Positions 19,468 through 46,225 of a DNA stretch of 64,000 nt are shown one piece after another. This DNA is from Luteimonas huabeiensis HB2. GTDB lineage: Bacteria > Pseudomonadota > Gammaproteobacteria > Xanthomonadales > Xanthomonadaceae. The stretch's first letter is position 1. Each line of letters opens with the position of its first letter. Under the pieces are notes generated by a model. It had not been told where the DNA came from and ran no database searches. It saw only the letters and a program-made list of their open reading frames with translations. Both the position numbers and the translations under genes were made by a program. The stretch is from contig NZ_JAAN01000021.1 of the NCBI RefSeq assembly GCF_000559025.1, positions 62,001 to 126,000 on the forward strand, written 5' to 3'.

Positions 19468-21774
<2,307 letters not shown>

Positions 21775-21791
21775 TCAGGTAATCGCGCACG

Positions 21792-24158
21792 GTGGCACGG
21801 CCTCTCCAGGAACGCAGCAGCAAACGTCCCCGCGGCGGCGCGGGCGCCGCCGAGCCGTCGGCGCCCAACCCGCGCCGGCAGCGGCTGTGGCGCGACATCG
21901 CGATGATCCTGATCGCGCCGCTGCTGCTGTACCTGTTCGCCAGCCTGCTGACCTTCTCGCCCGAGGACCCGGGCTGGTCGCGTTCGGGCAGCGTCACCGC
22001 GCCGCTGCACAACGTCGGCGGGCCGGTGGGGGCGTGGATCGCCGACGTGCTGCTGCACCTGTTCGGCTTCGTCGCCTACCTGCTGCCGCTGATGCTGGCG
22101 GCGATCGCGTGGATCGCGATGTTCGGCATGGACCACGACGGCGACGGCAAGGCCGACCTGGGCCCGGCGCTGCGGCTGGTGGGCATCGTCGGCTTCCTGG
22201 TCTCGGCCACCGGCCTGCTGGCCCTGCGCATTCCCAACGCCGCCGACCTGTCGGCCGGTGGCGGCGGCATCCTCGGGCGGCTGGTGGGCAACTCGCTCTA
22301 CGGCGGCTTCGGCCCGGTGGGCGGCAACCTGTTCCTGCTGGCGCTGGTGCTGGTCTCGGTGACCCTGGCCACCGGGCTGTCCTGGTTCCGGGTGATGGAC
22401 CGCATCGGCGCCTGGGCGATGAAGGTGCCCGACCTGCTGCGGCGGGGCACGCGGCAGGCTAGCGAATGGCAGCAGGCCCGCGAGCTGCGCGGCGAGCGCG
22501 AGGAAGTGCGCCGCAGCGAGACCGAGAAGCGCGCCAAGCGCACCCCCGTGCGGATCGAGCCGCCGGTCGCGCCGCCGGTGGTGGAGCGCAGCGAGCGCGC
22601 CAAGCGCGAGCAGCAGATCCCGCTGTTCAAGGGCACCGGCGGCGACGCCTCCGGGCTGCCGCCGCTGTCGCTGCTCGACGACCCGAAGCCGCAGCCCAAG
22701 GGTTACGACGAGGAGACGCTGGAGACGCTGTCGCGGCAGATCGAGTTCAAGCTCAAGGACTTCCGCATCGACGTGGAGGTCAAGGAAGCGCAGCCCGGGC
22801 CGGTCATCACCCGCTTCGAGATGGAGCCGGCGCCGGGCATCAAGGTCAGCCAGATCAGCTCGCTGGACAAGGACATCGCCCGCGGCCTGTCGGTGAAGTC
22901 GGTGCGCGTGGTGGACGTGATCCCGGGCAAGTCGGTGATCGGCCTGGAGATCCCCAACACCCGCCGGGAGATGATCTATCTCTCCGAGCTGCTGCGCTCG
23001 CGCGAGTACGACAAGTCGCCCAGCGTGCTGACGCTGGCGCTCGGCAAGGGCATCAGCGGGCAGTCGGTGGTCGCCGACCTGGCGCGCATGCCGCACCTGC
23101 TGGTGGCCGGCACCACCGGCTCGGGCAAGTCGGTGGCGGTCAACGCGATGGTGCTGAGCCTGCTGTTCAAGGCGACGCCGCAGGAGCTGCGGATGCTGAT
23201 GATCGACCCGAAGATGCTGGAGCTCAGCGTCTACGAGGGCATCCCGCACCTGCTGGCGCCGGTGGTCACCGACATGAAGGAGGCCGCCAACGGCCTGCGC
23301 TGGTGCGTGGCGGAGATGGAACGCCGCTACAAGCTGATGAGCGCGGTCGGGGTGCGCAACCTGGCCGGCTTCAACAAGAAGGTCAAGGACGCGCAGGACG
23401 CCGGCCAGCCGCTGCTCGACCCGCTGTTCCGGCCCAATCCGGAGACCGAGGAGGTGGCCCAGCCGCTGGAGCCGCTGCCCTACATCGTCATCTTCATCGA
23501 CGAATTCGCCGACATGATGATGATCGTCGGCAAGAAGGTGGAGGAGCTGATCGCGCGGCTGGCGCAGAAGGCGCGCGCGGCCGGCATCCACCTGATCCTG
23601 GCCACCCAGCGGCCGTCGGTGGACGTGATCACCGGCCTGATCAAGGCCAACATCCCGACCCGCATCGCGTTCCAGGTCAGCTCCAAGATCGACTCGCGCA
23701 CGATCCTCGACCAGTCCGGCGCCGAGACCCTGCTGGGGCACGGCGACATGCTGTACCTGCCGCCCGGCACCGCGCTGCCCGAGCGCGTGCACGGCGCCTT
23801 CGTCAGCGACGAGGAAGTGCACCGCGTCGTCGAGCACCTCAAGCAGAGCGGCAAGGCCGAGTACATCGAGGGCGTGCTGGACGAGGTGCAGACCATGGGC
23901 GACGGTACCGTGATCGGCGCCACCGGTCTGCCGGAGTCCGGCGGCGGGGCGGGGGACGAGAGCGACCCGCTGTACGACGAGGCGGTCAAGATCGTCACCG
24001 AGACCCGCCGCGCCTCGATCTCAGGCGTGCAGCGCCGGTTGAAGATCGGCTACAACCGCGCCGCGCGCCTGGTGGAGGCGATGGAGGCCGCGGGCGTGGT
24101 CAGCGCGCCCGAGCACAACGGCGACCGCTCGGTGCTGGCGCCGCCGCCGCCGAAGTAG
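21792..24158 (+). CDS. ftsK: DNA translocase FtsK
   Basis: Septal DNA pump that clears chromosome ends and activates XerCD at dif. The 788-residue protein has four transmembrane helices (about residues 38-190), a short charged linker rather than the long E. coli linker, and a motor with Walker [15 protein letters not shown] and Walker [14 protein letters not shown]. The C-terminal gamma winged helix (about 720-780, with [19 protein letters not shown]) recognises KOPS. The start is GTG at 21792 ([15 protein letters not shown]). It heads the ftsK-lolA-rarA block. A dif-like site lies only about 9 kb downstream. Confidence 0.97.
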
Positions 24159-24245
24159 GCCGCGCAGGCGGTTTTCCGCGGCCGGCTCGCGCTGCGGCGA
24201 GCTACCATCGGCCCATCGCCGGCGCGCCGGCTCCGTGAAAAGACC

Positions 24246-25373
24246 ATGCGCTCGAAGATCGCGTCGTGGCTGGCCTGCGCCGTGCTGGCCTGGATGGTGC
24301 CGCCTGCGGCTGCGGCCGAGCCGCCGGACCTGCCCGCGTTGCTGGCCCGGTGGGACCGCGACCCGCATCCCGACTTGCGCGGCGTGGTCGTGCTCCACCG
24401 CGGCCGCCGCGTCGCCGAGCGCTACTACCACGGCGCCGGCGCCGACGAGCTCCACGACGTCCGCTCGGCCGGCAAGAGCGTGACCGCGCTGATGGTCGGC
24501 ATCGCCATCGACCGCGGCGCCATCGGCTCGGTGGACGATCCGGTCCAGCGCTACTGGGCCGCGGCGGCGGGCCGCCCGGTCGGTGCGGTGGCGCTGCGCG
24601 ATCTGCTCGCGATGCGCTCCGGCCTCGACGCCTTCGACGAGGACCCGGATTCGCCCGGCCACGAGGACCGGATGGACGCCGCCGCCGATCCGCAGGCCTT
24701 CGTCCTCGGCCTGCCGCAGGCGGATCCGCCGGGCACGCGCTACCGCTACAACTCGGCGACCGCCTACGTCGCCGGGCTGGCGGTGGCCTACGCCACCGGC
24801 GAGACGATGGCCGCGCTCGCGGGCCGCGCGCTGTTCGCGCCGCTCGGGATCGCGGACTGGCGCTGGGATGCGGACGCATCGGGCGCGACCAAGGGGCAGG
24901 GCAACCTGCGGCTGACCACGCGCGGGCTCGCCGCCATCGGCGAGCTGGTGCGCAACGACGGTCGCGCCGGCGACCGCCAGGTGGTCGGCGAGGACTGGAT
25001 CCGACGGATGCTGGCGCCGCGGGTGGCCATCGGCGACGTCGACCCCTATGCCGACGATTACGGCTGGTTCTGGTACCGGAAGGACCACCGGATCGGCGAT
25101 GCGCTGGTCCCGGTCTGGTTCGCCTCCGGCAACGGCGGCAACAAGATCTACGTGGCCCCGGCCTGCGAGCTGGTCGTGGCGATCACGTCCGCGGCCTACG
25201 GCCGCGGCTATGGCCAGCGCCGTTCCGAGGCGATCCTGGCCGCGATTCTCGCCGCGCAGGTCGAGGCCGGCGACTGCCGGACCGGGGCCGGCCGCGCATC
25301 GCAGGCCCAGGCCGAGGCGGCGGGCCGGCGCGACGCGGCACGCGGCCCGCAGCCGCAGCGCAACCGGAGCTGA
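24246..25373 (+). CDS. Exported serine hydrolase of the class C beta-lactamase family
   Basis: A 375-residue protein with a Sec signal peptide (about residues 1-24, ending AAAAE). The penicillin-binding/transpeptidase-like fold shows the SxxK motif as SAGK (RSAGKSVTALMVG), the YxN motif as YNS (TRYRYNSATAY) and DLLAMRSGLDAFDED, which is typical of esterase/beta-lactamase family members. The late HxG-type motif is replaced by SGNGGNKIYV. The substrate is unknown and could be an ester, D-amino-acid peptide or beta-lactam. It lies between ftsK and lolA, a position empty in most relatives, so it looks like an insertion into a conserved block. The C-terminal 40 residues are Ala/Arg-rich and probably disordered. 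Confidence 0.85.
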   Translation: MRSKIASWLACAVLAWMVPPAAAAEPPDLPALLARWDRDPHPDLRGVVVLHRGRRVAERYYHGAGADELHDVRSAGKSVTALMVGIAIDRGAIGSVDDPVQRYWAAAAGRPVGAVALRDLLAMRSGLDAFDEDPDSPGHEDRMDAAADPQAFVLGLPQADPPGTRYRYNSATAYVAGLAVAYATGETMAALAGRALFAPLGIADWRWDADASGATKGQGNLRLTTRGLAAIGELVRNDGRAGDRQVVGEDWIRRMLAPRVAIGDVDPYADDYGWFWYRKDHRIGDALVPVWFASGNGGNKIYVAPACELVVAITSAAYGRGYGQRRSEAILAAILAAQVEAGDCRTGAGRASQAQAEAAGRRDAARGPQPQRNRS

Positions 25374-25475
25374 GCGCTGCCGCGGCGCGGCCGATCGCCC
25401 GCGCCGGAGGGCTGGCCCGTTCAGGCCGCTGCGGTCACACTGCGCGCCATCCGAATCCTGACCTGGAGACCCGCC

Positions 25476-26102
25476 ATGCGTCGTGTCCTGCTGGCCGCCG
25501 CCTTCGCCACCGCCCTGCTGCTGCCCGCCGGCGCGTTCGCCGGCGCGCGCGACACGCTGCAGGCCTTCACCCGCGACCTGCGCGGGCTGGACGGCCAGTT
25601 CACCCAACGCGTCTTCGACGGCAACGGCCGGGTCAAGGAGACCTCGAGCGGGCGGGTGGCGCTGGCGGCGCCGCGGCTGTTCCGCTGGGAGTACGTCGAG
25701 CCCTACCCGCAACTGATCGTCGCCGACGGCGAGAAGGTCTGGGTCTACGATCCCGACCTGGAGCAGGTGACCGTGCGGCCGCAGGGCGCCGAGGAGCAGA
25801 ACAGCCCGCTGGCCACGCTGACCGATCCGGCCCGGCTCGACCGCGACTTCGATGTCAGCGAGGAAGCGGCGCCGGCCGACGGCCTGCACTGGATGACGCT
25901 CACCCCCAAGCGCGAGCAGGAGGCGAGCTTCCAGTCCGCGCGGCTGGGCTTCGACGGCCAGGGACTGGCGCGGATGGAGGTGATCGACGCGCTGGGGCAG
26001 CGGACCGAGATCGCCTTCTCCGGCTGGCGCCGCAACCCCGCCTTCGCCGCCGACACCTTCCGCTATACGCCGCCGGCCGGTGTGGACGTGATCGGCGAGT
26101 AA
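25476..26102 (+). CDS. lolA: Outer-membrane lipoprotein carrier protein LolA
   Basis: Periplasmic chaperone that ferries lipoproteins from LolCDE to LolB. The 208-residue precursor has a Sec signal (about residues 1-22, ending AGAFA). The mature part has the half-barrel signature: LDGQFTQRVFDGNGRVKETS, the central PRLFRWEYVEPYPQLIVADG, and VWVYDPDLEQVTVRPQ. The length and order match LolA. It stands upstream of rarA with 43 bp between, as in E. coli. Confidence 0.95.
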   Translation: MRRVLLAAAFATALLLPAGAFAGARDTLQAFTRDLRGLDGQFTQRVFDGNGRVKETSSGRVALAAPRLFRWEYVEPYPQLIVADGEKVWVYDPDLEQVTVRPQGAEEQNSPLATLTDPARLDRDFDVSEEAAPADGLHWMTLTPKREQEASFQSARLGFDGQGLARMEVIDALGQRTEIAFSGWRRNPAFAADTFRYTPPAGVDVIGE

Positions 26103-26133
26103 CGCGCGTCTCATGGGTCGCGACGCGCGCCGG

Positions 26134-26139
26134 TAGAAT
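26134..26139 (+). promoter_or_regulatory. -10 element (TAGAAT) just before the rarA start
   Basis: TAGAAT lies 6 nt before the GTG start of rarA at 26146, so a transcript from it would be leaderless. Read-through from lolA is also possible. No clear -35 is visible. Confidence 0.45.
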
Positions 26140-26145
26140 GCGCGG

Positions 26146-27525
26146 GTGGCCCGGAAACCTTCCCGCCCGCCGCAAGGCGAGGACCTGCTGAGCGTGGATC
26201 GCAGCGCGCTGCGGCCGCTGGCCGAGCGCATGCGGCCGCGCAGCCTGGACGAGATGGTCGGGCAGCGGCGGCTGCTCGCGCCGGGTTCGGCGCTGCGGCG
26301 CGCGGTGGAATCGGGCCGCGTGCACTCGATGGTGCTCTGGGGCCCGCCCGGCTGCGGCAAGACCACCCTGGCGCTGCTGCTGGCGCAGTACGCCGATGCC
26401 GAATTCCGCGCCGTCTCCGCGGTGCTGTCCGGGCTGCCCGAGGTCCGCCAGGTCCTGGCCGAGGCCGGTCACCGCTTCGACGAAGGCCGCCGCACGGTCC
26501 TGTTCGTGGACGAGGTCCACCGCTTCAACAAGGCCCAGCAGGACGCCTTCCTGCCGCACATCGAGCGCGGCACCATCGTCTTCGTCGGCGCCACCACCGA
26601 GAACCCGTCGTTCGAGCTCAACTCCGCGCTGCTGTCGCGCTGCCGGGTGCACGTGATGGAGGCGGTGTCCGCCGACGACATCCAGGACGCGTTGCGCCGC
26701 GCGCTGGCCGACGACGAGCGCGGCCTGGGCGGGCAGGGCGTGCGCATCGAGGACAGCGCCCTGCGCGAGATCGCCGGCGCCGCCGACGGCGACGTGCGCC
26801 GCGCGCTGACCCTGCTGGAGATCGCCGCCGAGCTGGCCCAGGACGAGGGCGGGCGGATCACCGAGCAGACCCTGCTGCAGGTGCTGGCCGACCGCACGCG
26901 GCGCTTCGACAAGGGCGGCGAGCAGTTCTACGACCAGATCTCGGCATTGCACAAGTCGGTGCGCAGCAGCAATCCCGATGCCGCCCTGTACTGGCTGGCG
27001 CGCATGCTCGACGGCGGCTGCGACGCCGCCTACCTGGCGCGGCGGTTGACCCGCATGGCCGTCGAGGACATCGGCCTGGCCGACCCGCGCGCGCTGCAGA
27101 TGGCCATCGACGCCTGGGACACCTACGATCGCCTCGGCAGCCCGGAAGGCGAACTGGCGCTGGCCCAGCTCACCCTTTACCTGGCCAGCACCGCCAAGTC
27201 GAACGCCGGTTACATGGCCTGGAACCAGGCCCGCGCCGACGTGCGCGAGTACGGCACCCAGGAGGTGCCGATGCACATCCGCAACGCCCCGACCAAGCTG
27301 ATGAAGACGCTGGGCTACGGCCGCGGCTACCAGTACGACCACGATGCCGAGGGCGGCATCGCGCTGGACCAGACCGGTTTCCCCGACGCGATGGGCGAAC
27401 GCATCTACTACCGGCCGGTGCAGCGCGGGCTGGAACTCAAGCTCGGCGAGAAGCTCGCGCAACTGCGCGCAGCGCGCGCGCAGGCGCGGGGCGAGCGCGG
27501 GGAGGGGGAGGGCGCGGGTCCTTAG
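26146..27525 (+). CDS. rarA: Replication-associated recombination protein RarA (MgsA)
   Basis: AAA+ ATPase of the WRNIP1/Mgs1 family acting at stalled replication forks. The 459-residue protein has Walker A GPPGCGKTT (about 67-75), Walker B FVDEVHRFNKAQQDAFLPH (about 117-135), sensor 1 GATTENPSFELNSALLSRC, and the tetramerisation domain with YWLARMLDGGCDAAYLARRL. The N-terminal LAERMRPRSLDEMVGQ is conserved. The start is GTG at 26146, next to a -10 element. The last 20 residues are a charged low-complexity tail. A repeat array begins 65 bp downstream. Confidence 0.95.
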   Translation: MARKPSRPPQGEDLLSVDRSALRPLAERMRPRSLDEMVGQRRLLAPGSALRRAVESGRVHSMVLWGPPGCGKTTLALLLAQYADAEFRAVSAVLSGLPEVRQVLAEAGHRFDEGRRTVLFVDEVHRFNKAQQDAFLPHIERGTIVFVGATTENPSFELNSALLSRCRVHVMEAVSADDIQDALRRALADDERGLGGQGVRIEDSALREIAGAADGDVRRALTLLEIAAELAQDEGGRITEQTLLQVLADRTRRFDKGGEQFYDQISALHKSVRSSNPDAALYWLARMLDGGCDAAYLARRLTRMAVEDIGLADPRALQMAIDAWDTYDRLGSPEGELALAQLTLYLASTAKSNAGYMAWNQARADVREYGTQEVPMHIRNAPTKLMKTLGYGRGYQYDHDAEGGIALDQTGFPDAMGERIYYRPVQRGLELKLGEKLAQLRAARAQARGERGEGEGAGP

Positions 27526-27589
27526 GGCCCGAATCGGCCTCCACGGTGCGAAAAGGCACCCCGCCCCCGCCAGCGAGGCCATGTCGTCT

Positions 27590-27747
27590 TTTCCTTCCCC
27601 CGCAAGCGGGCGCCATCTTGTTTTTCCCTTCCCCCGCAAGCGGGGAGCATCTTGTTTTTCCTTCCCCCCGCTTGCGGGAGAAGGACGATATGCACCCGCT
27701 CGCGGGAGAAGGAACGACATGACCCGCTTGCGGGAGGGGGGGCAGGG
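27590..27747. repeat. Array of five CCCGC palindromes with two spacer types
   Basis: Five copies of a CCCGCnnGCGGG palindrome, extended with CTTCC/GGAAG arms, lie about 33 bp apart. The first two are followed by CATCTTGTTTTTC; the last three are separated by GGACGATATGCA- and GGAACGACATGA-type spacers. It sits in the 348-bp gap after rarA, which otherwise holds nothing recognisable except the short gene at 27874. The same two spacer types occur, in the same order but inverted, in the array at 42691-42840. Confidence 0.8.
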
Positions 27748-32694: not shown

Positions 32695-33132
32695 TCACTC
32701 GTTTGCCGTATGCCCGCCGCCGCCCGGGTCCAGCCGCCTCGCATAGCCGATCAGCGCCGACAGCGAGCGCAGGCCGAGGCGGGTGGCGATGTGTTCCCGG
32801 TGCTTGCGCACGGTAGCCGGGCTGAGGCCCAGCACCCGGGCGATCTGCTTGCTGGTGAGCCCGCGCCCCACGAGCAGGACGATCTCGCGCTGGCGCGGTG
32901 TGAGCCCGTGGGCGCTCGCCGGTGGCGCCGGCCGGCTGGCAGCGCTGGCGTGCTCGATGGCGTAGGCGGTCAATTGCGCCGCGCTGTGCAGGTCGAGCTT
33001 ATCCAGCAGGTGTCGCCGATGGGTGCGCGCGGTGAAATAGGCGATGCCGAGTTCGCGGGCGATCTCGGCGGTCGTACGGCCGCGTGCGATCGATCGGAGG
33101 ACGTCCCATTCCCTGGACGTGAGTCTGGCCAT
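32695..33132 (-). CDS. Regulator made of two tandem LuxR-type HTH domains
   Basis: A 145-residue protein with two complete GerE/LuxR helix-turn-helix units and nothing else. The first (about 4-61) contains LTSREWDVLRSIARGRTTAEIARELGIAYFTARTHRRHLLDKLDL, of which TAEIARELGI is the core. The second (about 77-135) contains LTPRQREIVLLVGRGLTSKQ and IARVLGLSPATVRKHREHI. Ordinary family members carry one such domain after a sensor or receiver. The linker is Ser/Ala/Pro-rich (about 62-75). It lies upstream of the two unknown genes on the same strand and may control them; its upstream gap holds a dif-like site. Confidence 0.83.
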   Translation of the reverse strand: MARLTSREWDVLRSIARGRTTAEIARELGIAYFTARTHRRHLLDKLDLHSAAQLTAYAIEHASAASRPAPPASAHGLTPRQREIVLLVGRGLTSKQIARVLGLSPATVRKHREHIATRLGLRSLSALIGYARRLDPGGGGHTANE

Positions 33133-33290: not shown

Positions 33291-33318
33291 ATTTCGCATA
33301 ATGTAGATTATGTAAAAC
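33291..33318. other. dif: dif-like XerC/XerD recombination site (probable chromosome dif)
   Basis: The 28 bp divide into an 11-bp XerC arm ATTTCGCATAA, a 6-bp centre TGTAGA and an 11-bp XerD arm TTATGTAAAAC. From memory of the E. coli site this matches at about 22 of 28 positions, including the CGCATAA and TTATGT cores. It lies in an AT-rich island within very GC-rich DNA, between divergent genes. KOPS-like octamers converge on it from both sides (see findings). An element-borne dif-like site is the alternative, but no second copy was seen. Confidence 0.85.
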
Positions 33319-33390: not shown

Positions 33391-33826
33391 ATGCAGATCG
33401 GCGAACTCTCGCGCCTGTCCGGCGTATCCATCGACACCGTGCGCTATTACGAGCGGCACGGCGTGCTGCCCGCGCCGGCGCGGCAGCCTTCCGGCTACCG
33501 GCGCTATGGCGCGTCGGACGTCCAGCGGTTGCGCTTCGTCGCGCGCGCCAAGGCGCTGGGCTTCACCCTGGCCGAGATCCGGGAGCTGCTGGCGCTGTCG
33601 GACCGGGCCGGCGCCCGCCCGGATGCGGATCGCGACATCACCGCGCTGCGCGAGCTGGCCCGGGCGCGGCTGCAGGCGCTGGAGCGCAAGCTGGCCGAAC
33701 TGGGCCGGGTGCGCGACGCCCTGGCCGGGCTGGTCGAAGCCTGTCCGGGCCATGGGCCGGCGGCGGCCTGCCCGATCCTGGGGGCGCTGACCACGCAATC
33801 CCTTGCCCTGGACCGGGAGACCTCCC

Positions 33827-33837
<11 letters not shown>
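33391..33837 (+). CDS. MerR-family heavy-metal-responsive regulator
   Basis: A 148-residue activator/repressor with the MerR helix-turn-helix ([20 protein letters not shown], residues 1-20, then [11 protein letters not shown]), a long dimerisation helix (about 80-112) and a metal loop. The loop contains [13 protein letters not shown], two cysteines eight residues apart, compared with seven in CueR. It overlaps the ATPase gene by 11 bp and both follow the MerR-type operator, so the regulator controls its own operon. Metal: copper is suggested by the ATPase, while the operator resembles that of ZntR; the loop does not settle it. Confidence 0.9.
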
Positions 33838-36145
<2,308 letters not shown>

Positions 36146-36186
36146 GCGGGCGTTCGCGCGCGGAGCGCATCGCGCGAAAAAAGCGG

Positions 36187-36215
36187 TTGCGCTCTCCCGA
36201 AGGCGTCATTACAAT
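36187..36215 (+). promoter_or_regulatory. Sigma-70 promoter for the tRNA pair
   Basis: TTGCGC and TACAAT are separated by 17 bp, with the -10 ending 19 nt before the mature 5' end of tRNA-Ala. This is the best sigma-70-like promoter in the window. Confidence 0.75.
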
Positions 36216-36234
36216 CTCGCGCTCCCGACACATT

Positions 36235-36310
36235 GGGGCCATAGCTCAGCTGGGAGAGCGCCTGCATGGCATGCAGGAGGTCGGCGGTTCGATCCCGCCT
36301 GGCTCCACCA
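36235..36310 (+). tRNA. tRNA-Ala (GGC anticodon)
   Basis: A full cloverleaf: acceptor GGGGCCA/TGGCTCC with encoded CCA, D arm AGCTCAGCTGGGAGAGC, anticodon stem CCTGC/GCAGG with loop ATGGCAT (anticodon GGC), and T arm with GGTTCGATCC. It is 76 nt long and is transcribed with the following tRNA-Glu. Confidence 0.97.
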
Positions 36311-36356
36311 CGGTTTCCGCACCAAAGGCCGGTGCGGTGTCCGCTTCGCGAACCGC

Positions 36357-36432
36357 GTCCCCATCGTCTAGAGGCCTAGGACACCACCCTTTCACGGTGG
36401 CGACCGGGGTTCGAATCCCCGTGGGGACGCCA
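36357..36432 (+). tRNA. tRNA-Glu (TTC anticodon)
   Basis: Acceptor GTCCCCA/TGGGGAC, discriminator G and encoded CCA. The anticodon stem CCACC/GGTGG has loop CTTTCAC (anticodon TTC), and the T arm has GGTTCGAATCC. It lies 46 bp after tRNA-Ala and is followed by a terminator. It is a substrate of MnmA. Confidence 0.97.
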
Positions 36433-36450
36433 CGCACCAGGACGCACGAC

Positions 36451-36476
36451 GAACGCCCGCTCTCGCGGGCGTTTTT
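36451..36476 (+). terminator. Terminator of the tRNA operon
   Basis: AACGCCCGC-TCTC-GCGGGCGTT followed by a T-run: a 9-bp perfect stem directly after tRNA-Glu. Confidence 0.88.
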
Positions 36477-36642
36477 CGTTTCGGGCGCGGCTGGAGCGCA
36501 GGCGATGGAAACGTTCGAGTCGCGCCGCCCGGGGCCTGGGCGTTGCCCTGCGTTCACGTTGCGCGAATGCGCCCCCTGCTCCAATCGGACGCGGACCTGC
36601 GCGGTGCGTTCCGGCGCATCGCCCCGCGATCACCGGAGCCTC

Positions 36643-38010
36643 ATGGATTCTCGAGTCGCCCGCGCCACGATCGACGCCGAGGCCCTAGAGCCGCGTCCCA
36701 TCCTCCATCCCGCCGCGGCGTTCGCGATCACCATCGGCATCGTCGTGGGCGCCGGCATCTTCCGCACGCCTTCGCTGGTCGCCGGCGCCTCGTCCAGCGG
36801 TTTCATGATGCTGCTGGCCTGGGCGGTCGGCGGCGCGCTGTCGGTGGTGGGGGCGCTGTGCTATGCCGAGCTCGCCACCGCCTATCCGCAGTCGGGCGGC
36901 GACTACAGCTACCTGCGCCGCGCCTACGGCGTGCGGCCGGCGTTCCTGTACGCGTGGGCGCGGCTGACCGTCATCCAGACCGGCTCGATCGTGCTGATGG
37001 CCTACGTGGCCGGCGACTACCTGACCCAGCTGTTCGCGCTGGGCCCGGCGTCGTCGTCGCTCTACGCGGCCGCGATCGTCGCGGTGCTGACGCTGGTCAA
37101 CTGGCTCGGCGTGCGCCAGGGCACCGCGGTGCAGAACGCGCTGACCGCGATCGAGGTGGCCGGGGTGTGCCTGATCATCGTCGCCGGCCTGCTGTTCGCC
37201 CCGGACGGCGCGGCCCTGCCCGGCACCGGCGCCGGCGGCGAGGGCGCGCTGGGCCTGGTGCTGGTCTTCGTGCTGCTGACCTACGGCGGCTGGAACGAGG
37301 CGGTCTACATCACCGCCGAGGTGCGCGATGCGCGGCGGCTGATGCCGCGCATCCTGGTGCTGAGCCTGATCGCGATCGCCGCGCTGTACGTGCTGGTCAA
37401 CCTGGCCTTCCTGCGCGTGCTGGGGCTGGGCGGCATGGCCGCCTCGGAGGCGGTGGCCGCCGACGCCATGCGCGCGGTGTTCGGCCCCACCGGCTCGGCG
37501 CTGATGAGCGCGATCGTGGTCGCCGCGGCGCTGACCTCGGCCAACGCCACCATGATCACCGGCGCGCGCAGCGTCTACGCGGTGGGCCGCGACTATCCCG
37601 CGCTGGGTTTCATCGGCCGCTGGGACCAGGCCCGCGGCACGCCGCGCGCGGCGATGCTGGCCCAGGGCGGACTGTCGCTGGCGCTGGTCGCGGTGGCGGC
37701 GAACGCGATGGACGGATTCCGCACCGCGGTCGAGTACACCGCGCCGGTGTTCTGGCTGTTCTTCCTGCTGGTCGGCGTCTCGCTGTTCGTCCTGCGCCGG
37801 CGCGATCCGGCGCGTCCGCGCCCGTTCCGGGTGCCGCTCTACCCCGCCCTGCCCCTGCTGTTCTGCGCCACCAGCGCCTATCTGCTGTACTCGAGCCTGG
37901 TCTACACCGGCATCGGCGCCCTGTTCGGCATCGCGGTCCTGGCGCTCGGCGCGATGCTGCTGCTGTTCCTGCGACCCGTACCGAGCCAACGAAAGGAGTC
38001 CTCGCCATGA
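36643..38010 (+). CDS. APC-superfamily amino acid permease
   Basis: A 455-residue membrane protein with about 12 predicted helices. The N-terminal GIVVGAGIFRTPSLVAG (about residues 26-42) is the broken helix 1 motif of the amino acid-polyamine-organocation superfamily, and CYAELATAYPQSGGDYSYLRR (about 67-87) is the second signature. The late ARSVYAVGRDYPALGFIGRWD is helix 8 with its loop. The substrate cannot be read from sequence. ATG at 36643 follows CCGGAGCC. Its stop overlaps the start of a lipoprotein methyltransferase gene (ATGA), so the two are translationally coupled. Confidence 0.88.
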   Translation: MDSRVARATIDAEALEPRPILHPAAAFAITIGIVVGAGIFRTPSLVAGASSSGFMMLLAWAVGGALSVVGALCYAELATAYPQSGGDYSYLRRAYGVRPAFLYAWARLTVIQTGSIVLMAYVAGDYLTQLFALGPASSSLYAAAIVAVLTLVNWLGVRQGTAVQNALTAIEVAGVCLIIVAGLLFAPDGAALPGTGAGGEGALGLVLVFVLLTYGGWNEAVYITAEVRDARRLMPRILVLSLIAIAALYVLVNLAFLRVLGLGGMAASEAVAADAMRAVFGPTGSALMSAIVVAAALTSANATMITGARSVYAVGRDYPALGFIGRWDQARGTPRAAMLAQGGLSLALVAVAANAMDGFRTAVEYTAPVFWLFFLLVGVSLFVLRRRDPARPRPFRVPLYPALPLLFCATSAYLLYSSLVYTGIGALFGIAVLALGAMLLLFLRPVPSQRKESSP

Positions 38011-38675
38011 GATTTCCGAAGACGTTCGCCTGCCTGCTGCTGTGCGTGCCCCTGCTTGCGTCCTGCGCCGAGGACGCGATCAATGCCTACAAGCCGGTCC
38101 AGCAGGCGGAAGAGCCGCAGGCGGAGGCCGACGCGCAGGCGATGCCGGCGGTTTCCGCGGCCACCGAGCCGCGTTCGCCCTACGCCGAGGAGGAGCTGCC
38201 CAAGCCGGCGCGCGAGCCGGACGTGATCTACGTCCCCACACCGCAGCCGGTGGTGGATGCCATGCTGAAGCTCGCGCGGGTGAACGAGCACGACGTCCTC
38301 TACGACCTCGGCTCGGGCGACGGCCGCATTCCGGTCACCGCCGCGCGCGAGTTCGGCATTCGCGCGGTCGGCATCGACATCAACCCGGTGCGCATCCGCG
38401 AGGCCAACGCCAACGCGCAGCGCGCCGGGGTGACGGACCTGGTGAGCTTCCGCGAGGAAGACCTGTTCGAGGCCGACATCAGCGAGGCCACGGTGGTCAC
38501 CCTGTACCTGCTGCAGAGCCTCAACGTGAAGCTGCGGCCGAAGCTGCTGAGCGAGCTGCGCCCGGGCACCCGCATCGTCAGCCACGCGTTCGACATGGCC
38601 AACGAGTGGGAGCCGGAGCAGACCCAGCAGGTCGGCGACAGCACGATCTACCTGTGGACGGTGCCGGAGCGCTGA
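38007..38675 (+). CDS. Lipoprotein-type class I SAM methyltransferase
   Basis: A 222-residue protein with a lipoprotein signal (MRFPKTFACLLLCVPLLASC, lipobox LASC, lipidated C20). About 45 disordered Ala/Glu/Pro-rich residues follow, then a Rossmann methyltransferase domain: DLGSGDG (100-106) and GIDINPVRI bind S-adenosylmethionine, and TLYLLQSLNVKLRPKLLSEL ends the core. Secreted or anchored methyltransferases of this kind exist in several phyla, but how they get SAM outside the cytoplasm is unknown. It overlaps the permease stop (ATGA), so a functional link, such as modifying a transported compound, is possible. Confidence 0.83.
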   Translation: MRFPKTFACLLLCVPLLASCAEDAINAYKPVQQAEEPQAEADAQAMPAVSAATEPRSPYAEEELPKPAREPDVIYVPTPQPVVDAMLKLARVNEHDVLYDLGSGDGRIPVTAAREFGIRAVGIDINPVRIREANANAQRAGVTDLVSFREEDLFEADISEATVVTLYLLQSLNVKLRPKLLSELRPGTRIVSHAFDMANEWEPEQTQQVGDSTIYLWTVPER

Positions 38676-38705
38676 ACGCCCCGGCGCCCCGCGCCGACCG
38701 CGCGC

Positions 38706-39194
38706 CTACGCCTCGGCCAGGCGCGCGGCCTCGGCGCCCGGCGCCAGCGTGGCCACGCCGTGGCCGCGCTCGCCGAGGTACTGCAGCCATTTGCCCAGGA
38801 AGGTGTTCATGCGCATGCGGTGGCCCACCACTTCCGCCGGCGGCGGGAACATGCCGATCACGTCCTGCCAGCGCCGGCCCACGTAGCAGTGGGTCGCTTC
38901 CACCTGCCGCGCGTCGCGGTACAGGCGCAGGTAGGCCGACGGGTCGGGCTCGCCGGTCACGGGATCGGTCATGGCGTAGGACAGGCGCAGCTCGGTCGTG
39001 TAGCGGTGCTGGTCGAGGACGTCGAGGCGCACGTCGAGGCCGTCTCCGACCGAGGACACGTAGCCGCCCACCGCCAGGTGGCCGGGATCGAACAACGCGA
39101 CCAGGCGCGCGTGGTTCTCCGCGTACAGCCCCATCAGCCAGCCGAAGCGGCCGATCCTGGGGATGCGCGTGGCGGGGGACGGGACCTGCGACAT
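38706..39194 (-). CDS. DUF1249 (YqiB-type) family protein
   Basis: A 162-residue cytosolic protein. RFGWLMGLYAENHARLVALF (about residues 16-35) and the mid part LDVLDQHRYTTELRLSY, then YLRLYRDARQVEATHCY, match the YqiB/DUF1249 family of gammaproteobacteria. FLGKWLQYLGERGHG near the end is also conserved. The function is unknown; in E. coli it sits next to nudF and cpdA. Here it stands alone, convergent with the methyltransferase and upstream of nothing on its strand for 98 bp. Confidence 0.82.
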   Translation of the reverse strand: MSQVPSPATRIPRIGRFGWLMGLYAENHARLVALFDPGHLAVGGYVSSVGDGLDVRLDVLDQHRYTTELRLSYAMTDPVTGEPDPSAYLRLYRDARQVEATHCYVGRRWQDVIGMFPPPAEVVGHRMRMNTFLGKWLQYLGERGHGVATLAPGAEAARLAEA

Positions 39195-39292
39195 GTCCCG
39201 ATCCTACACGTTGCCCGCAGCCCGGGGCAGCCTCGGCGCCGGCGCGCGGCGGCCACGGGGTTCAGGATCGATCCGGAACGCGCCCGCGTCGC

Positions 39293-40132
39293 TCAGAACA
39301 TCACGCGGTTGATCCCGAGGTCTTCCAGGATGCGGCTGGAGATCTCCTCGATCGAGGCGTTGGTGGTGCTGAGCATGGGGATGCCTTCCATCCGCAGCAG
39401 CGTTTCGGCGGCCGCGACCTCCCGCCGGCAGGTCTCCAGCTCGGCGTAGCGCGAGTTCGGGCGCCGTTCCTGCCGGATCTGGTGCAGGCGCTGCGGGTCG
39501 ATGGTCAACCCGAACAGCTTGCGGCGGTACGGGCGCAGGCGCGGCGGCAGGCGGTCGGATTCCAGGTCTTCCTCGGTCAGCGGGTAGTTGGCCGCGCGCA
39601 CGCCGTAATGCAGCGCCAGGTAGACGCAGGTCGGGGTCTTGCCCGCGCGCGAGACCGCCACCAGGATCACGTCCGCCTCGTCGTAGTTCACCGCCATGCC
39701 GTCGTCGTGGGCCAGCGCGAAGTTCATCGCGTTGATGCGCCGGTGGTAGGTGTCGAAATCGACCATGCCGTGGGCCTGGCCGATCCGCGACTGCCGGGAG
39801 ACGCCGAGCTCGCCCTCCATCGGCGCGATGAAGGGCGCGAAGACGTCGAGGATGAGCGCCCCGCTCTGCGCCAGCACCCCGTTCAGCGCCGGGTCCACGC
39901 AGGAACTGACCACGATCGGGCGATGGCCGTGCACCTCGCCGGCGCGCACGATCTCGGCGACCGCCTCGCGGGCCTTCTCGGGCGTGTCGACGAACGGGAT
40001 GCGGTCGGTGACGAAGCGGAAGCCGACGAACTGGGTCAGCAGGCTGTGGCCGATGGTCTCGGCGGTGATCCCGGTGCCGTCGGAGACGTAGAAGACCGGG
40101 CGGACGGGGGCGTGGTCGGGGACCTGGGACAT
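39293..40132 (-). CDS. ppsR: PEP synthetase regulatory protein PpsR (DUF299)
   Basis: Bifunctional serine/threonine kinase and pyrophosphorylase that inactivates and reactivates PEP synthase using ADP and phosphate. The 279-residue protein has [20 protein letters not shown] (about residues 13-32) and the P-loop-like [20 protein letters not shown] (about 155-174), followed by [20 protein letters not shown]. All of these are family marks. It is divergent from its target gene ppsA with about 100 bp between, the usual arrangement. Confidence 0.95.
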
Positions 40133-40161
40133 GCGGTTCGGCGCGCTGGCATCGGGAACGC

Positions 40162-40167
40162 TAAAAT
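40162..40167 (+). promoter_or_regulatory. -10 element (TAAAAT) ahead of ppsA
   Basis: TAAAAT lies in an otherwise GC-rich divergent region, 66 nt before the ppsA start. The -35 is not recognisable, so the call rests on base composition and position. Confidence 0.4.
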
Positions 40168-40233
40168 AGCCGCTTCCGCCGGGACGCGCCCTGCGGGCCG
40201 CATGTTCCCGTTTTCCTCCAGGAGAGCCCCCCT

Positions 40234-42609
40234 TTGAGCGCCAACATCCTCTGGCTGCACGATCTGCGACTCGACGACCTCGCCCAGGTCGGCGGCAAGA
40301 ACTCCTCGCTCGGCGAGATGATCGGCAACCTGGCCCAGCTGGGCGTGTCCGTGCCGGGCGGCTTCGCCACCACCGCCGACGCGTTCAAGGCATTCATCGC
40401 CCACAACGACCTGCACCAGCGCATCTTCGACCGCCTGGCCGCCCTGGACGTCGAGGACGTCGGTGCGCTGACCGCCGCCGGCCGCGAGATCCGCGGCTGG
40501 GTGGTCGAGGCGCCGCTGCACCCCGAGCTCGAGCGCGACATCCGCAATGCCTACGCCCGCCTCTGCGAGGAGAACGGCGGCGGCGACGTGGCGGTGGCGG
40601 TGCGCTCATCGGCCACCGCCGAGGACCTGCCCGACGCCTCCTTCGCCGGCCAGCAGGAGACCTTCCTCAACGTCGTCGGCGCCGACGACGTGGCGCGCAA
40701 GGTCAAGGAGGTCTTCGCCAGCCTCTACAACGACCGCGCCATCGCCTACCGCGTGCACCACGGCTTCAAGCACGAGGACGTGTTCCTGTCGGCCGGCGTG
40801 CAGCTGATGGTGCGTTCCGACGTCGGCGCCTCGGGCGTGCTGTTCACCCTCGACACCGAGTCCGGCTTCCGCGACGTGGTGTTCGTGACCGCCAGCTACG
40901 GCCTGGGCGAGAACGTCGTGCAGGGCGCGGTCAACCCCGACGAGTTCTACGTCTACAAGCCCACCCTCGAGCAGGGCAAGCCGGCGATCCTGCGCCGCTC
41001 GCTGGGCGCCAAGCAGATCCGCATGGTGTATTCCGACCAGCCCGGCGAGCGCGTGCGCAACGAGGACACCCCCGCCGAGCTGCGCGGCCGCTTCTCGGTC
41101 TCCGACGAGGACGTCCACGAGCTGGCCCGGCAGGCGCTCGTCATCGAGAAGCACTACGGCCGGCCGATGGACATCGAGTGGGCGAAGGACGGCGTCAGCG
41201 GCAAGCTGTTCATCGTGCAGGCGCGCCCGGAGACGGTGAAGTCGCGCGGCAAGGCCACCCAGATCGAGCGCTACGCGCTGGAGCAGCGCGGCAAGGTGAT
41301 CGCCGAGGGCCGCGCGATCGGCCAGAAGATCGGCTCCGGCGTGGCGCGCGTGGTGCGCTCGCTCGACGACATGAGCAAGGTCCAGCCCGGCGACGTGCTG
41401 GTCGCGGACATGACCGACCCCGACTGGGAGCCGGTGATGAAGCGCTCGGCGGCGATCGTGACCAACCGCGGCGGGCGGACCTGCCACGCGGCGATCATCG
41501 CCCGCGAGCTGGGCGTGCCGGCGGTGGTCGGCACCGGCAACGCGCTGGAGGCGATCGAGGACGGCGCGGAGGTCACCGTCAGCTGCGCCGAGGGCGATAC
41601 CGGCTTCATCTACGAGGGGCGGCTGCCGTTCGAGCGCACCACCACCGACCTGTCCTCGATGCCCGAGGCGCCGCTCAAGATCATGATGAACGTCGCCAAC
41701 CCGGAGCGCGCGTTCGATTTCGGCCAGCTGCCCAACGCCGGCATCGGGCTGGCGCGGCTGGAGATGATCATCGCCAGCCACATCGGTGTGCACCCGAAGG
41801 CGCTGCTCGAATACGACCAGCAGGACGCGGCCACGAAGAAGGCCATCGACGCGCGCACCGCCGGCTACGCCGATCCGGTGTCGTTCTACGTCGATCGTCT
41901 CGCCGAGGGCATCGCCACCCTCACCGCCTCGGTCGCGCCGAACCCGGTCATCGTGCGGCTGTCGGACTTCAAGTCGAACGAGTACGCCAACCTCATCGGC
42001 GGCCAGCGCTACGAGCCGGAGGAGGAGAACCCGATGATCGGCTTCCGCGGCGCCAGCCGCTACGTCGATCCCTCCTTCGCCGACGCGTTCGCGCTGGAGT
42101 GCCGCGCGGTGCTGAAGGTCCGCAACGAGATGGGCCTGGACAACCTCTGGGTGATGATCCCGTTCGTGCGCACCCTCGACGAAGGCCGCAAGGTGGTCGA
42201 GGTGCTGGCCGCCAACGGCCTGCGCCAGGGCGAGGACGGCCTGAAGATCATCATGATGTGCGAGGTCCCGTCCAACGCGCTGATGGCCGACGAGTTCCTC
42301 GACATCTTCGACGGCTTCTCGATCGGCTCCAACGACATGACCCAGCTGACCCTGGGCCTGGACCGCGATTCCTCGGTGGTGGCGCACCTGTTCGACGAGC
42401 GCGATCCGGCGGTCAAGAAGATGCTCTCGATGGCGATCCAGGCCGCGCGCGCCCGGGGCAAGTACGTCGGCATCTGCGGCCAGGGCCCCAGCGACCATCC
42501 GGATCTGGCCGAGTGGCTGATGCAGGAAGGCATCGAGTCGGTCTCGCTCAACCCGGACACCGTCGTCGACACCTGGCTGCGCCTGGCCAAGCTCAAGGCC
42601 CGCGGCTAG
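40234..42609 (+). CDS. ppsA: Phosphoenolpyruvate synthase
   Basis: Makes PEP from pyruvate and ATP for gluconeogenesis. The 791-residue protein has an N-terminal ATP-grasp ([34 protein letters not shown]). The swivelling phosphohistidine domain has catalytic H418 in [15 protein letters not shown], and a PEP/pyruvate barrel ends the protein with [12 protein letters not shown]. The start is TTG at 40234, supported by CCAGGAGAG about 8 nt upstream and by the family N-terminus. The stop codon TAG is also the first three bases of a TAGGAGCG repeat. Regulated by PpsR, encoded divergently. Confidence 0.96.
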
Positions 42610-42690
42610 GAGCGCGGGCGGCGGAAGCCGTCCGGGCTGCGCGCCTCGCCGAGCGGTCCATTTCCGCGCCGCTTCTTGGCCTGTACGGCA
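42607..42690 (+). repeat. Half-copy of the TAGGAGCG-family repeat fused to the ppsA stop
   Basis: Beginning at the ppsA stop, TAGGAGCG-C/T-GGGCGGC, GTCCGGGCTGC, GGTCCAT-TTCCGC and TTCT-GGCCTGTA align in order with the left half of the element at 9874-10039. The right half is missing and is replaced by the palindrome array that starts at 42691. Confidence 0.75.
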
Positions 42691-42840
42691 CGTCGTTCCT
42701 TCTCCCGCGAGCGGGTGCATGTCGTCCCTTCTCCCGCGAGCGGGTGCATGTCGTCCCTTCTCCCGCGAGCAGGAAAAACAAGATGCCCCCCCGCTTGCGG
42801 GGGAAGGCAAAAACAGGATGCTCCCGCTTGCGGGGAAGGC
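42691..42840. repeat. Array of five CCCGC palindromes, inverted relative to the 27.6-kb array
   Basis: Three copies of CTTCTCCCGCGAGCGGG or a one-base variant are separated by TGCATGTCGTCC, then two CCCCGCTTGCGGGG-type palindromes follow after AAAAACAAGATGC and AAAAACAGGATGC. Reverse-complemented, this is the same order of spacers (CATCTTGTTTTT twice, then GACGACATGCA) as at 27590-27747. With the half-element it fills the 260-bp gap between ppsA and orn. Confidence 0.8.
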
Positions 42841-42870
42841 GCCTTCGCGCCGGCTGCCCGCAGGTCCCGC

Positions 42871-43437
42871 TCAGTCGGCGATGGCGAAGTCCGCCAGGTG
42901 CCGGCGGTAGTGCCGCAGTTCCTCGATGGAATCGCGCACGTCGCTGAGCGCGGTATGCGCCGACTGCTTGCGCACGCCCTGCAGCACGGCCGGCGCCCAG
43001 CGCCGCGCCAGTTCCTTCAGGGTGCTGACGTCGAGGTTGCGATAGTGGAAGTAGCGCTCCAGCTCCGGCATCTGCCGGTGCAGGAAACGCCGGTCCTGGC
43101 AGATCGAGTTGCCGCACATCGGCGAGGCCCGCGGCGGCACCCATTCGCGCAGGAAGGCCAGCGTGCGCGCCTGCGCCTCGGCCATCGGCACGCCTTCCTC
43201 CAGCACCCGGCGCCACAGGCCGGAGCGGCCGTGCTGGTTGCGGTTCCACTCATCCATCGCTTCCAGCGCGTCGAGCGGATGGGCGATCGCGAATTCGGGG
43301 CCTTCGGCCAGCACCCGGAGCTGCGAATCGGTCACCACCGTGGCGATCTCCAGGATCGAGTCGCGGTCGGTGTCCAGCCCCGTCATTTCCAGGTCGATCC
43401 AGACCAGCCGGCCTTCGCCCTCGTGCTCCACTGACAT
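42871..43437 (-). CDS. orn: Oligoribonuclease Orn
   Basis: Degrades 2-5 nt RNA to mononucleotides, including pGpG, the product of c-di-GMP hydrolysis, so it completes the pathway of the phosphodiesterases in this window. The 188-residue DEDDh exonuclease has [12 protein letters not shown] (D and E), [18 protein letters not shown] (D) and [18 protein letters not shown] (H, D). The ATG at 43437 touches its GAGGAG site with no spacer. A GTG two codons later (43431) has ideal spacing and may be the true start. Confidence 0.95.
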
Positions 43438-43528
43438 CTCCTCGGGATCCGTGCGTTCGCACCGGCGGACGCGACGGCGCATGATATCGCAGCCCTTTCC
43501 CGCCATACGCCCGCGCCGCGCCCGCCCG

Positions 43529-44020
43529 ATGCCCCTGACGACCGAGCCGAACCACTACGCCATCCTCACCGCGATGCTGGCGCCCGCGTTTTTCCTGACC
43601 GCCACCGCCGGCCTGCTGACCTCGGCCAACGCGCGCCTGGCCCGGGTCATCGACCGCAGCCGCGCGCTGCTGCGCGAGCTGGAGGAAAGCGAGGACGCCG
43701 AAGACCGCGCGATCATCGAGCAGCGCATCCGCCTGCAGCGCACGCGCAGCCGGATGATCCTGCGCGCCAGCCAGCTGCTGTACGTGGCGATCAGCTGCTT
43801 CGTGGGCACCAGCCTGAGCGTGGCCGGCGATTCCTTCCTCGGCCACCGCGTGGCCCAGCTGCCCACGGTGCTGGCGGTGTTCGGCGTGCTGTCGATGCTG
43901 GCCGCCAGTGTGCTGCTCGCCAGCGAGGCCTCGCACGCCGTGGCCGCGGTCAACCACGAGATGGACGACGCCTACGTCAAGGCCAACCGCAGGAACCGGG
44001 CGCGGCAGGCGGATCGGTAG
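43529..44020 (+). CDS. DUF2721 family membrane protein
   Basis: A 163-residue protein with three predicted transmembrane helices: about residues 10-32 ([20 protein letters not shown]), 80-100 ([20 protein letters not shown]) and 108-132. Between the first two is a charged coiled loop ([20 protein letters not shown]) and [20 protein letters not shown]. This matches the DUF2721 family of unknown function. It is divergent from orn and convergent with tadA. Confidence 0.83.
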
Positions 44021-44029
44021 AGCGGCCGC

Positions 44030-44524
44030 CTACGGCAGCGGCGCGCGGCCGCGCTTGCGGCGGAAATAGTTGCTCAGCCGCGTGCCTGCCTCGTGCGCCA
44101 GCACGCCGCCGGAAACCGCCACGCGGTGGTTGTGGCGCGGATCCAGCAGCAGGTCGAACACGCTGCCGGCCGCGCCGGTCTTGGGATCGGCCGCGCCGTA
44201 GACCAGCCGCGCCACCCGCGCGTGCACCACCGCCATCGCGCACATGGCGCAGGGCTCCAGGGTGACGTAGAGCGTGGTGCCGAGCAGGCGGTGGTTGCCC
44301 AGGCGCCGCCCGGCCGCGCGCAAGGCCACGATCTCGGCATGCGCGCTGGGATCGGACTCGCCGATGTTGCGGTTCCAGCCCTCGCCCAGCACCTCGCCCG
44401 CGGCCGACACCAGCACCGCGCCGACCGGGATCTCGTCGTCCTCGCGCTCGGCGCGTTCGGCCAGCGCCAGCGCATGGCGCATCCAGCGTTCGTCGTCGTC
44501 GGCAGGTTCCGGAGGCGGGATCAA
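44030..44524 (-). CDS. tadA: tRNA-specific adenosine deaminase TadA
   Basis: Deaminates the wobble adenosine of tRNA-Arg(ACG) to inosine. The 164-residue zinc enzyme has DPSAHAEIVALRAAG (H62, E64) and TLEPCAMCAMAVVHAR (C92, C95), plus DPKTGAAGSVFDLL and a C-terminal LSNYFRRKRG. The fold requires the helix ERWMRHALALAERAE at the N-terminus, so the TTG at 44524 is used as start. An ATG at 44482 would cut into that helix, and no strong ribosome-binding site marks either. A short frame MSLSFAVRA overlaps the region upstream. Confidence 0.92.
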   Translation of the reverse strand: MIPPPEPADDDERWMRHALALAERAEREDDEIPVGAVLVSAAGEVLGEGWNRNIGESDPSAHAEIVALRAAGRRLGNHRLLGTTLYVTLEPCAMCAMAVVHARVARLVYGAADPKTGAAGSVFDLLLDPRHNHRVAVSGGVLAHEAGTRLSNYFRRKRGRAPLP

Positions 44525-44559
44525 GCGCGCACGGCGAAAGACAGGCTCATGCGGCCATT

Positions 44560-45081
44560 CTAGCCCGTGCCCTCGCCCGCCTCCCAGGCGCCCGGCAAGG
44601 GCCCCGCCCCGCCGTGCGCCGGATCCGCCGCCGGCATCGGCACCGCTTCGATGCGGGCCAGGATCGCCGGCGTGGGCGGCTGCGTGCGCAGGTCGTAGTC
44701 CTGGCCCCGCGGGTAGGCGCCCACGACCAGGAAATCCGGCGAGGCCCGCACGCGCCGGTGACCGGTGCCGGCGGGCAGCACGAGCACGTCGCCCGCGCGC
44801 AGCGCCACGATTTCGCCGCCCGGCCCGCCGAGCTGCACGCGCGCCTCGCCGCCGGCCACGCCCAGGGCCTCGTGGGCAGTGGAATGGTAGTGGTGGTAGC
44901 CGAAGATGCCGTCGCGCCACCGCGGCGGCCAGGCGTTGGCGGCGAACAGGCGCTCGAACGCCGAAGCCGTGCCCTCGCGCCCGGCGCCGGCCAGGACGCG
45001 GCGATGGATCACCACCGGCAGGCGCGGATGGGTCATGCGCCCGCTGCCGGGTTCGAGCCGAAGGATGTCGGGAGATCGCAT
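44560..45081 (-). CDS. Cupin-domain protein
   Basis: A 173-residue protein with a single cupin barrel: motif 1 around GYHHYHSTAHEALGVAGGEA (about residues 61-80) and motif 2 GDVLVLPAGTGHRRV (about 99-113). The His residues HxH and the late H could bind a metal. It belongs to the group annotated as cupin or YjlB-like. Function unknown; a small-molecule isomerase or dioxygenase role is possible. It is 35 bp upstream of tadA on the same strand. Confidence 0.8.
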   Translation of the reverse strand: MRSPDILRLEPGSGRMTHPRLPVVIHRRVLAGAGREGTASAFERLFAANAWPPRWRDGIFGYHHYHSTAHEALGVAGGEARVQLGGPGGEIVALRAGDVLVLPAGTGHRRVRASPDFLVVGAYPRGQDYDLRTQPPTPAILARIEAVPMPAADPAHGGAGPLPGAWEAGEGTG

Positions 45082-45219
45082 GGGCGTGCCTCGCGCAGAT
45101 GCCTCGCGGCGATTCTGGCGGCGCCGGCATGAAGGCGCGGACACGTCCCCGCAGGCGGCCGGCAGGGACCTCGCGGGGGAGTACGATGTTCCGACCTTCC
45201 CACCTCTTCGGAGCCGGCC

Positions 45220-45621
45220 ATGCGCGCCTTCCGTGTTCTTTCCTTCCTGTTCCTGGCGTGCCTGGCGCTGGGCCTGTCCGCCTGTTCGTCTTCCAAGCCG
45301 GAGGCGACGGTGGAGGCGTTCTACCGTGCCGCCGCCAAGGGCGACGTCGAGCGCGCCACCGCGCAGATCTCCTTCGCCGATGTCCCGGCCAACCAGATGG
45401 TGCAGGCCAAGGGCAAGGTGCAGATGATCGTCGGCGAGATGCAGAGCCGGGTCGAGGCCAACGACGGCCTGGACGCGATCGAGGTGGTCGAGTCCGAGAT
45501 CGACGAGGCCGGCGACACCGCGCGCGTGCGTACCCGCCTGGTCTTCGGCAACGGCAAGGATACGAGCGAGACCCACCGGCTGGTCCGCGAGGACGGCGAC
45601 TGGAAGATCGTCCTGCGGTGA
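45220..45621 (+). CDS. DUF4878-like lipoprotein
   Basis: A 133-residue lipoprotein: signal MRAFRVLSFLFLACLALGLS, lipobox LSAC with C22 lipidated. The mature part has KPEATVEAFYRAAAKGDVER and ends VREDGDWKIVLR, the NTF2-like layout of DUF4878 proteins. The role is unknown; such domains often bind small ligands in the periplasm. Its stop overlaps the GTG start of the next gene (GTGA), so the two are coupled. Confidence 0.82.
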   Translation: MRAFRVLSFLFLACLALGLSACSSSKPEATVEAFYRAAAKGDVERATAQISFADVPANQMVQAKGKVQMIVGEMQSRVEANDGLDAIEVVESEIDEAGDTARVRTRLVFGNGKDTSETHRLVREDGDWKIVLR

Positions 45622-46193
45622 GCGCGACGCGCCGCCTCGGGGCGTGGCTGGCGGCGCTGCTGCTCGCGCCGCTAGCCGCGCTTGCCGCGGCGGACCCGCT
45701 GCCGCCCGGCGCGCGGGCCGGCGACCTGATCTTCCGCGAGGGCACCGAGGCGGTCAGCGCCGCGGTGATCGCCGTGGACCGGTCGGGCTACAGCCACGTC
45801 GGCATGCTGCTGGGCGGCCCGGGCCGCTGGCAGGTCCTGCACGCCACGCCGTCCGAAGTCCCGGGACGGCCGGACGGGGTGGTGATCGATCCGCTCGCGT
45901 TCTTCCTCGACCCGCAGCGCGCCCGGCGCCACGTCGTCTACGCGGTGCGCGCCGATGAGGAGCAGCGCGCCCGCGCGCTGGCGCATGCGCGCGAGCGCGT
46001 CGGCCGCCGCTTCCGGCTGGCGGACCCGTCCGGCACCTACTGCACCGCGCTGGTCTGGGACGCGTGGCGGGCTGCCGGCGTCGATCTCGACGTGCGCTTC
46101 GTGCGCCTGGCGTTGCCGCTGATGCAGGGCGATTACCTGCTGCCGGGCGAGCTGATGGCGTCGCCCCGGCTGCGCCGCCTGCCGCTGCGCTGA
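45618..46193 (+). CDS. Exported YiiX/YebB-like NlpC/P60-family cysteine hydrolase
   Basis: A 191-residue protein with a signal peptide (about 1-25) and a permuted papain-like fold. GDLIFREGTEAVSAAVIAVD leads to RSGYSHVGMLL with H60, and the catalytic cysteine is C142 in SGTYCTALVWDAW. The His-before-Cys order marks the circularly permuted YiiX/YaeF/LRAT group. A role in cell-wall peptide or lipid amide/ester hydrolysis is inferred. It is translationally coupled to the upstream lipoprotein gene. Confidence 0.83.
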   Translation: MSATRRLGAWLAALLLAPLAALAAADPLPPGARAGDLIFREGTEAVSAAVIAVDRSGYSHVGMLLGGPGRWQVLHATPSEVPGRPDGVVIDPLAFFLDPQRARRHVVYAVRADEEQRARALAHARERVGRRFRLADPSGTYCTALVWDAWRAAGVDLDVRFVRLALPLMQGDYLLPGELMASPRLRRLPLR

Positions 46194-46225
46194 GGCCGCG
46201 GTACGCGGCCGCTGTGCTACCATGC

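Follow-up and report, generated by a model that had tools for sequence, protein, structure and literature searches.

We examined a 28-bp sequence in the genome of Luteimonas huabeiensis HB2 and conclude, with a probability of about 97%, that it is the chromosome dimer resolution site (dif). It lies at positions 33291-33318 of the window, i.e., the whole 64,000-nucleotide stretch of DNA analysed here, which covers bases 62001-126000 of a 169,344-base contig and places the site at contig position 95291 (95.3 kb). The results computed were the site itself, its uniqueness in the assembly, the convergence of KOPS octamers on it, a turn of the GC skew, an FtsK with a gamma domain, XerD and a second recombinase, together with the position of dnaA in related genomes; binding, activation and recombination at the site would proceed as in E. 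coli and other studied bacteria. A sequence-only reading of the window had proposed a chromosomal dif, and the unique site, the converging octamers, the skew turn and the location opposite dnaA in all six relatives bore this out. The site is an ordinary chromosomal dif, a further example of a long-known arrangement and unsurprising in kind.

The site comprised two 11-bp arms around a 6-bp centre (11+6+11) with an inner palindrome, and its letters matched exactly, on the + strand, the XerC/XerD-type site that had been read by eye. Its parts are given below; assigning XerC to the first arm and XerD to the second is our assumption, by analogy with E. coli dif.

33291..33301, + strand: presumed XerC-binding arm of dif, ATTTCGCATAA; inner part constant among the Luteimonas matches
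33302..33307, + strand: central hexamer TGTAGA, read from the sequence
33308..33318, + strand: presumed XerD-binding arm of dif, TTATGTAAAAC; TTATGT (inner) invariant among the Luteimonas matches, which vary in the outer part

The AT-rich island described earlier around the site was also recovered, the 28-mer overlapping the 40-mer with the highest AT content in the window, which starts at 33282 and is 75% AT. Among the Luteimonas matches listed GCATAA and TTATGT were invariant, and the centre and outer XerD arm varied considerably within the genus: the central hexamers were mostly TGTACA, with TGTAGA, TGCACA, TGTATA, TGCCTA, TGCATC and TGTCTC among the others.

The assembly is a draft: 86 contigs with 4,295,921 bases in all (4.30 Mb), at an estimated completeness of 99.97%, and as judged in this draft dif is present in one copy. 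A 26-mer pattern allowing up to 3 mismatches matched once in the whole assembly, at the site, and its reversed control gave 0 matches. With the looser core pattern, the site was recovered from either strand and two further places were hit at 3 mismatches each; the reversed control of this pattern gave 7 matches. Neither assembly scan produced the better dif match elsewhere in the chromosome that the sequence-only reading had named as evidence against itself. Within the window, the core pattern was found only at the site, on both strands, and each arm 10-mer had a single exact occurrence.

Of 37 Luteimonas genomes, 30 had a single site, the source genome among them, and the remaining 7 gave no match at the thresholds used. 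Across the family Xanthomonadaceae, one match per genome was obtained in 123 of 140 genomes, representing 42 of 44 genera, and 17 genomes were without a match at the thresholds used; the variable centre and outer arms may be the reason for the missed genomes. One genome (G002) was unmatched in the 37-genome Luteimonas scan and matched in the 140-genome family scan. Half of the genomes from other families of the same order (12/24) presented a match, G041 among them with two. In the genome collection, a near-identical core was present in 43 stretches: 11 from Luteimonas, 1 from Lysobacter, 3 from Lysobacteraceae and 28 from others, many of them Pandoraea.

The position of the site relative to the replication terminus was inspected by GC skew and by the location of dnaA. 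Along the + strand of a chromosome, the terminus corresponds to the maximum of cumulative GC skew. Within the window the skew was weak; over the contig (2-kb bins, + strand) the cumulative skew was highest in the 96-98 kb bin, rising before it and falling after it. The sequence-only reading had predicted a skew minimum and was wrong in this, a maximum being found near the site instead; its prediction that skew and KOPS would both turn at the site was correct, both turning at it or within ~3 kb on the contig. In all six complete or nearly complete Luteimonas relatives (G008, G011, G017, G029, G036 and G022, the last in 6 contigs), dif was 49.5-51.8% of the chromosome away from dnaA, these percentages being divided by hand from the main dnaA match, with the gene of G011 split across two frames and weaker second matches in G008, G011 and G029 set aside. 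The ori-ter axis of the source genome is hidden by the draft, which leaves only the local turn of skew and KOPS to be seen there.

A full count of the KOPS octamer GGGNAGGG in the window gave 18 occurrences:

1384, 5814, 18543, 24894, 26731, 27499, 27505 and 27740 (span 1384..27747), + strand: KOPS left of the site
25701 and 27626, - strand: KOPS left of the site, on the opposite strand
35142, 37214, 37847, 46401, 47177, 57764, 58352 and 62820 (35142..62827), - strand: KOPS right of the site

Left of the site the octamers were thus distributed 8+/2- and right of it 0+/8- (Fisher p = 0.001), converging on it as had been claimed. Their number was unremarkable (18 vs 12.7 expected; 7 of 100 shuffles reached 18); what stands out is their polarity. 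All 13 octamers listed in the earlier scan by eye were real and its count of 0 on the + strand to the right stood, but five had been missed (26731, 27499 and 27505 on +, 25701 and 46401 on -). The statement that 27626 falls within a repeat was also true: three tandem 34-nt repeats (27578-27679), ~280 bp from a tRNA-Arg gene, contain this one wrong-way KOPS.

The polarity extended beyond the window. On the 169-kb contig the octamer counts were 29+/5- left and 1+/10- right of the site (Fisher p = 9e-6), and the best switch intervals were two that tied, 89740-97142, which contains the site, and 89505-89626. Up to 10 kb from the site in the six relatives, the octamers summed to 24+/0- on the left and 1+/22- on the right. 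Whole-chromosome polarity was seen in one relative, G017, by samples, the source genome being a draft: twenty 20-kb samples taken round the chromosome gave 25+/5- before dif and 2+/32- after it. In each of the six relatives, the sequence GGGCAGGG outnumbered its reversed control (2270 vs 801 summed).

Strand composition by itself accounts for some of the octamer polarity. Convergence was also seen for three control octamers, at 0.50-0.87 vs 0.87-0.98 for GGGNAGGG, and some of these were significant alone; the strongest of them, GGGCNGGG (p = 5e-6, 3e-6 and 1e-11), includes GGGCAGGG. This same, if weaker, lean of the controls is what speaks for the view that the 28-mer is an AT-rich palindrome arisen by chance and that strand composition alone explains the KOPS polarity, an explanation that we hold to be extremely improbable: the site matches the core pattern with 0 mismatches, vs 0.37 matches expected per window by shuffling at up to 3 mismatches, and a like site recurs once per genome across the family (see above) and opposite dnaA in the six relatives. 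Chance composition as the whole cause was ruled out by this recurrence, the weaker lean of the control octamers being conceded.

The source genome also encodes the proteins that a chromosomal dif would need. The translocase gene is located in the window:

21792..24158, + strand: ftsK, DNA translocase with 4TM, motor and gamma (KOPS-reading) domains, by Pfam and by alignment to solved FtsK chains

This gene reads towards dif, 9 kb away, and its product was close to the solved FtsK chains in the alignment. The gamma domain retains the 11-residue recognition helix, which by our own mapping includes the equivalents of R1300, E1303 and E1306, residues given in the available text of PMC2680272 as required for KOPS reading in E. 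coli FtsK. XerD scored above the curated cut-off at G000:C35:9627-10505 of the source genome; a further Xer-type recombinase, on a different contig (C42:13317-14168), was judged with the XerD model, fell under its cut-off and is taken as a putative XerC. In each of the seven genomes searched, XerD scored over the cut-off and was accompanied by a second Xer-type recombinase.

As in E. coli and other studied bacteria, these components would act as follows. Once recombination had joined sister chromosomes into a dimer, FtsK would, at the closing septum, pull the DNA, reading KOPS by its gamma domain, and would be steered from either side to where KOPS converge. There it would reach XerC and XerD bound on two copies of dif and activate XerD, and one strand exchange per recombinase would turn the dimer into two monomers.

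The genes flanking the site both read away from it, and the one on the right is followed by an ATPase gene:

32695..33132, - strand: small regulator with a LuxR-type helix-turn-helix (Pfam GerE), left neighbour
33391..33837, + strand: MerR-family metal regulator (Pfam; NCBIfam matches all below cut-offs), right neighbour
33803..36145, + strand: heavy-metal (copper-type) P-type ATPase (Pfam; TIGR01525 and TIGR01511 above cut-off)

The MerR and ATPase genes probably form one operon. A putative MerR-style promoter was seen by eye at 33330-33361 (TTGACC, a 20-base spacer and TAAGCT); the promoter scan, covering only 16-18-base spacers, did not list it. The genes for tRNA-Ala(GGC) and tRNA-Glu(TTC) are located at 36235-36432, 3 kb right of dif. 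To the left, two - strand ORFs (31128-31598 and 31625-32698) presented a coding-like base composition and no Pfam or NCBIfam match, and a beta-lactamase-fold gene, lolA and rarA lie downstream of ftsK.

Gene content next to dif was compared among Luteimonas genomes. In one other compared genome, G014 (L026, L044), the same place by dif was occupied by a MerR with 92% identity and, after it, the ATPase. In several further Luteimonas, genes for a metal-type ATPase or a MerR-family protein lay no more than 10 kb from dif, as more distant relatives or turned round: L059 had an ATPase with 72% identity at 0.1-2.2 kb, L015, L016 and L054 had MerR-family genes with 38-39% identity at up to 0.8 kb, and G036 had an ATPase and a MerR gene at 7.6-10 kb. 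In the outer frame, where the flank reaches, ftsK, lolA and rarA were left of dif in G008 and G022, and ppsR and ppsA were right of it in G011, G022, G029, L031 and L073 and left of it in L063.

The immediate flanks of dif, then, differ among species, and the MerR gene begins 72 bp beyond the site, in an order shared with G014; moreover, Xer-integrating phages are known in Xanthomonas (PMC2731167, in its available text). These observations would fit a 28-mer that is the attachment scar or boundary of a dif-integrating element, be it a filamentous phage or another user of Xer, that carries the MerR/metal-ATPase operon as cargo, an origin that we nevertheless judge very unlikely. The assembly has a single dif, the arm 10-mers and the core pattern are confined to the site in the window, and no phage protein was present among those named beside the site by family matches, two left ORFs having matched no family; the KOPS polarity and skew turn at the site are those of a chromosomal one. 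Scans of the assembly and the window revealed no second or half dif site that could mark the other border of an element, and an element-borne dif was rejected on these grounds.

With the site read as the chromosomal dif, its distance to ftsK could be followed across the family. Both were on one contig in 94 of the 123 family genomes with dif (on different contigs in 29), with a median distance of 49 kb (range 2.7-359 kb), and ftsK read towards dif in 94/94. The same direction was found in all 16 of 26 further Luteimonas genomes that had ftsK and dif on one contig, i.e., in 110 of 110 genomes altogether. Expressed relative to genome size (sizes rounded), the distance was at most 12%, with a median of 0.9%, in 26 genomes assembled in one contig or nearly so.

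The linkage looked striking, but it is unlikely that selection holds ftsK beside dif and pointing at it in all Xanthomonadaceae, with the protein that acts there then made from the gene copies replicated last before division. The control gene ppsR, from the other side of dif, was on the dif contig in 89 of 123 genomes at a median of 43 kb and read towards dif in 86 of 89; in G091, one of the three exceptions, the positions were near both ends of one 3.1-Mb contig and the distance is probably a wrap. In the ppsR comparison, which included only genomes with a dif match (123/140) and the 94 ftsK rows on the dif contig, ftsK was nearer to dif than ppsR in only 31 of 73 genomes, and dif was not between the two genes in 11 of 73 (G091 included). 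A second control, mnmA, tended to lie close to ftsK in a by-eye reading. Since ppsR keeps a similar distance and direction, no special reason for ftsK is needed; a special ftsK-dif linkage was dropped, and the nearness of ftsK to dif across Xanthomonadaceae is probably general terminus gene order.

The orientation of dif relative to ftsK was variable, ftsK being on the XerC side in 74 of 110 genomes and on the XerD side in 36, which suggests either that the region around dif has been inverted repeatedly or that the site turns freely. According to the available text of PMC3025954, ftsK in many bacteria mostly has xerC, close to dif, on one side and xerD, close to the origin, on the other, and for E. 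coli a figure legend in PMC2958812 puts ftsK in the oriC region; no statement on the location of ftsK in Xanthomonadaceae was found in the literature searched.

The site fixes the terminus of the source chromosome and provides a Luteimonas dif sequence with its KOPS polarity, which can be used for ordering draft contigs and finding dif-integrating elements. The family-wide positions of ftsK, ppsR and dif form a small resource for the study of how terminus genes stay together while dif reorients.

The Luteimonas site resembles dif of E. coli and other Gammaproteobacteria in its 28-bp length, 11+6+11 layout, GCATAA/TTATGT inner palindrome and occurrence once per chromosome at the terminus, and the system is alike in its converging KOPS, its FtsK with a gamma domain and its recombinase genes on other contigs than dif. 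It differs in the outer arm bases and in the centre, TGTAGA here and TGTATA in E. coli. The position of ftsK differs as well: in E. coli it is several hundred kb from dif, whereas in Luteimonas genomes with both on one contig the distance was 4.7-117 kb. A literature search for a Luteimonas dif site found no paper. The Luteimonas site belongs to the same class as the X. campestris dif, for which in vivo evidence is cited in the available text of PMC2731167 and PMC3025954, and as the dif sites predicted by Carnoy and Roten 2009 (PMC2731167) and by Kono et al. 2011 (PMC3025954); those works applied the same tests as here, sequence match and GC-skew turn. The X. campestris dif entry in PMC2731167 differs from the Luteimonas site in its outer arms and centre.
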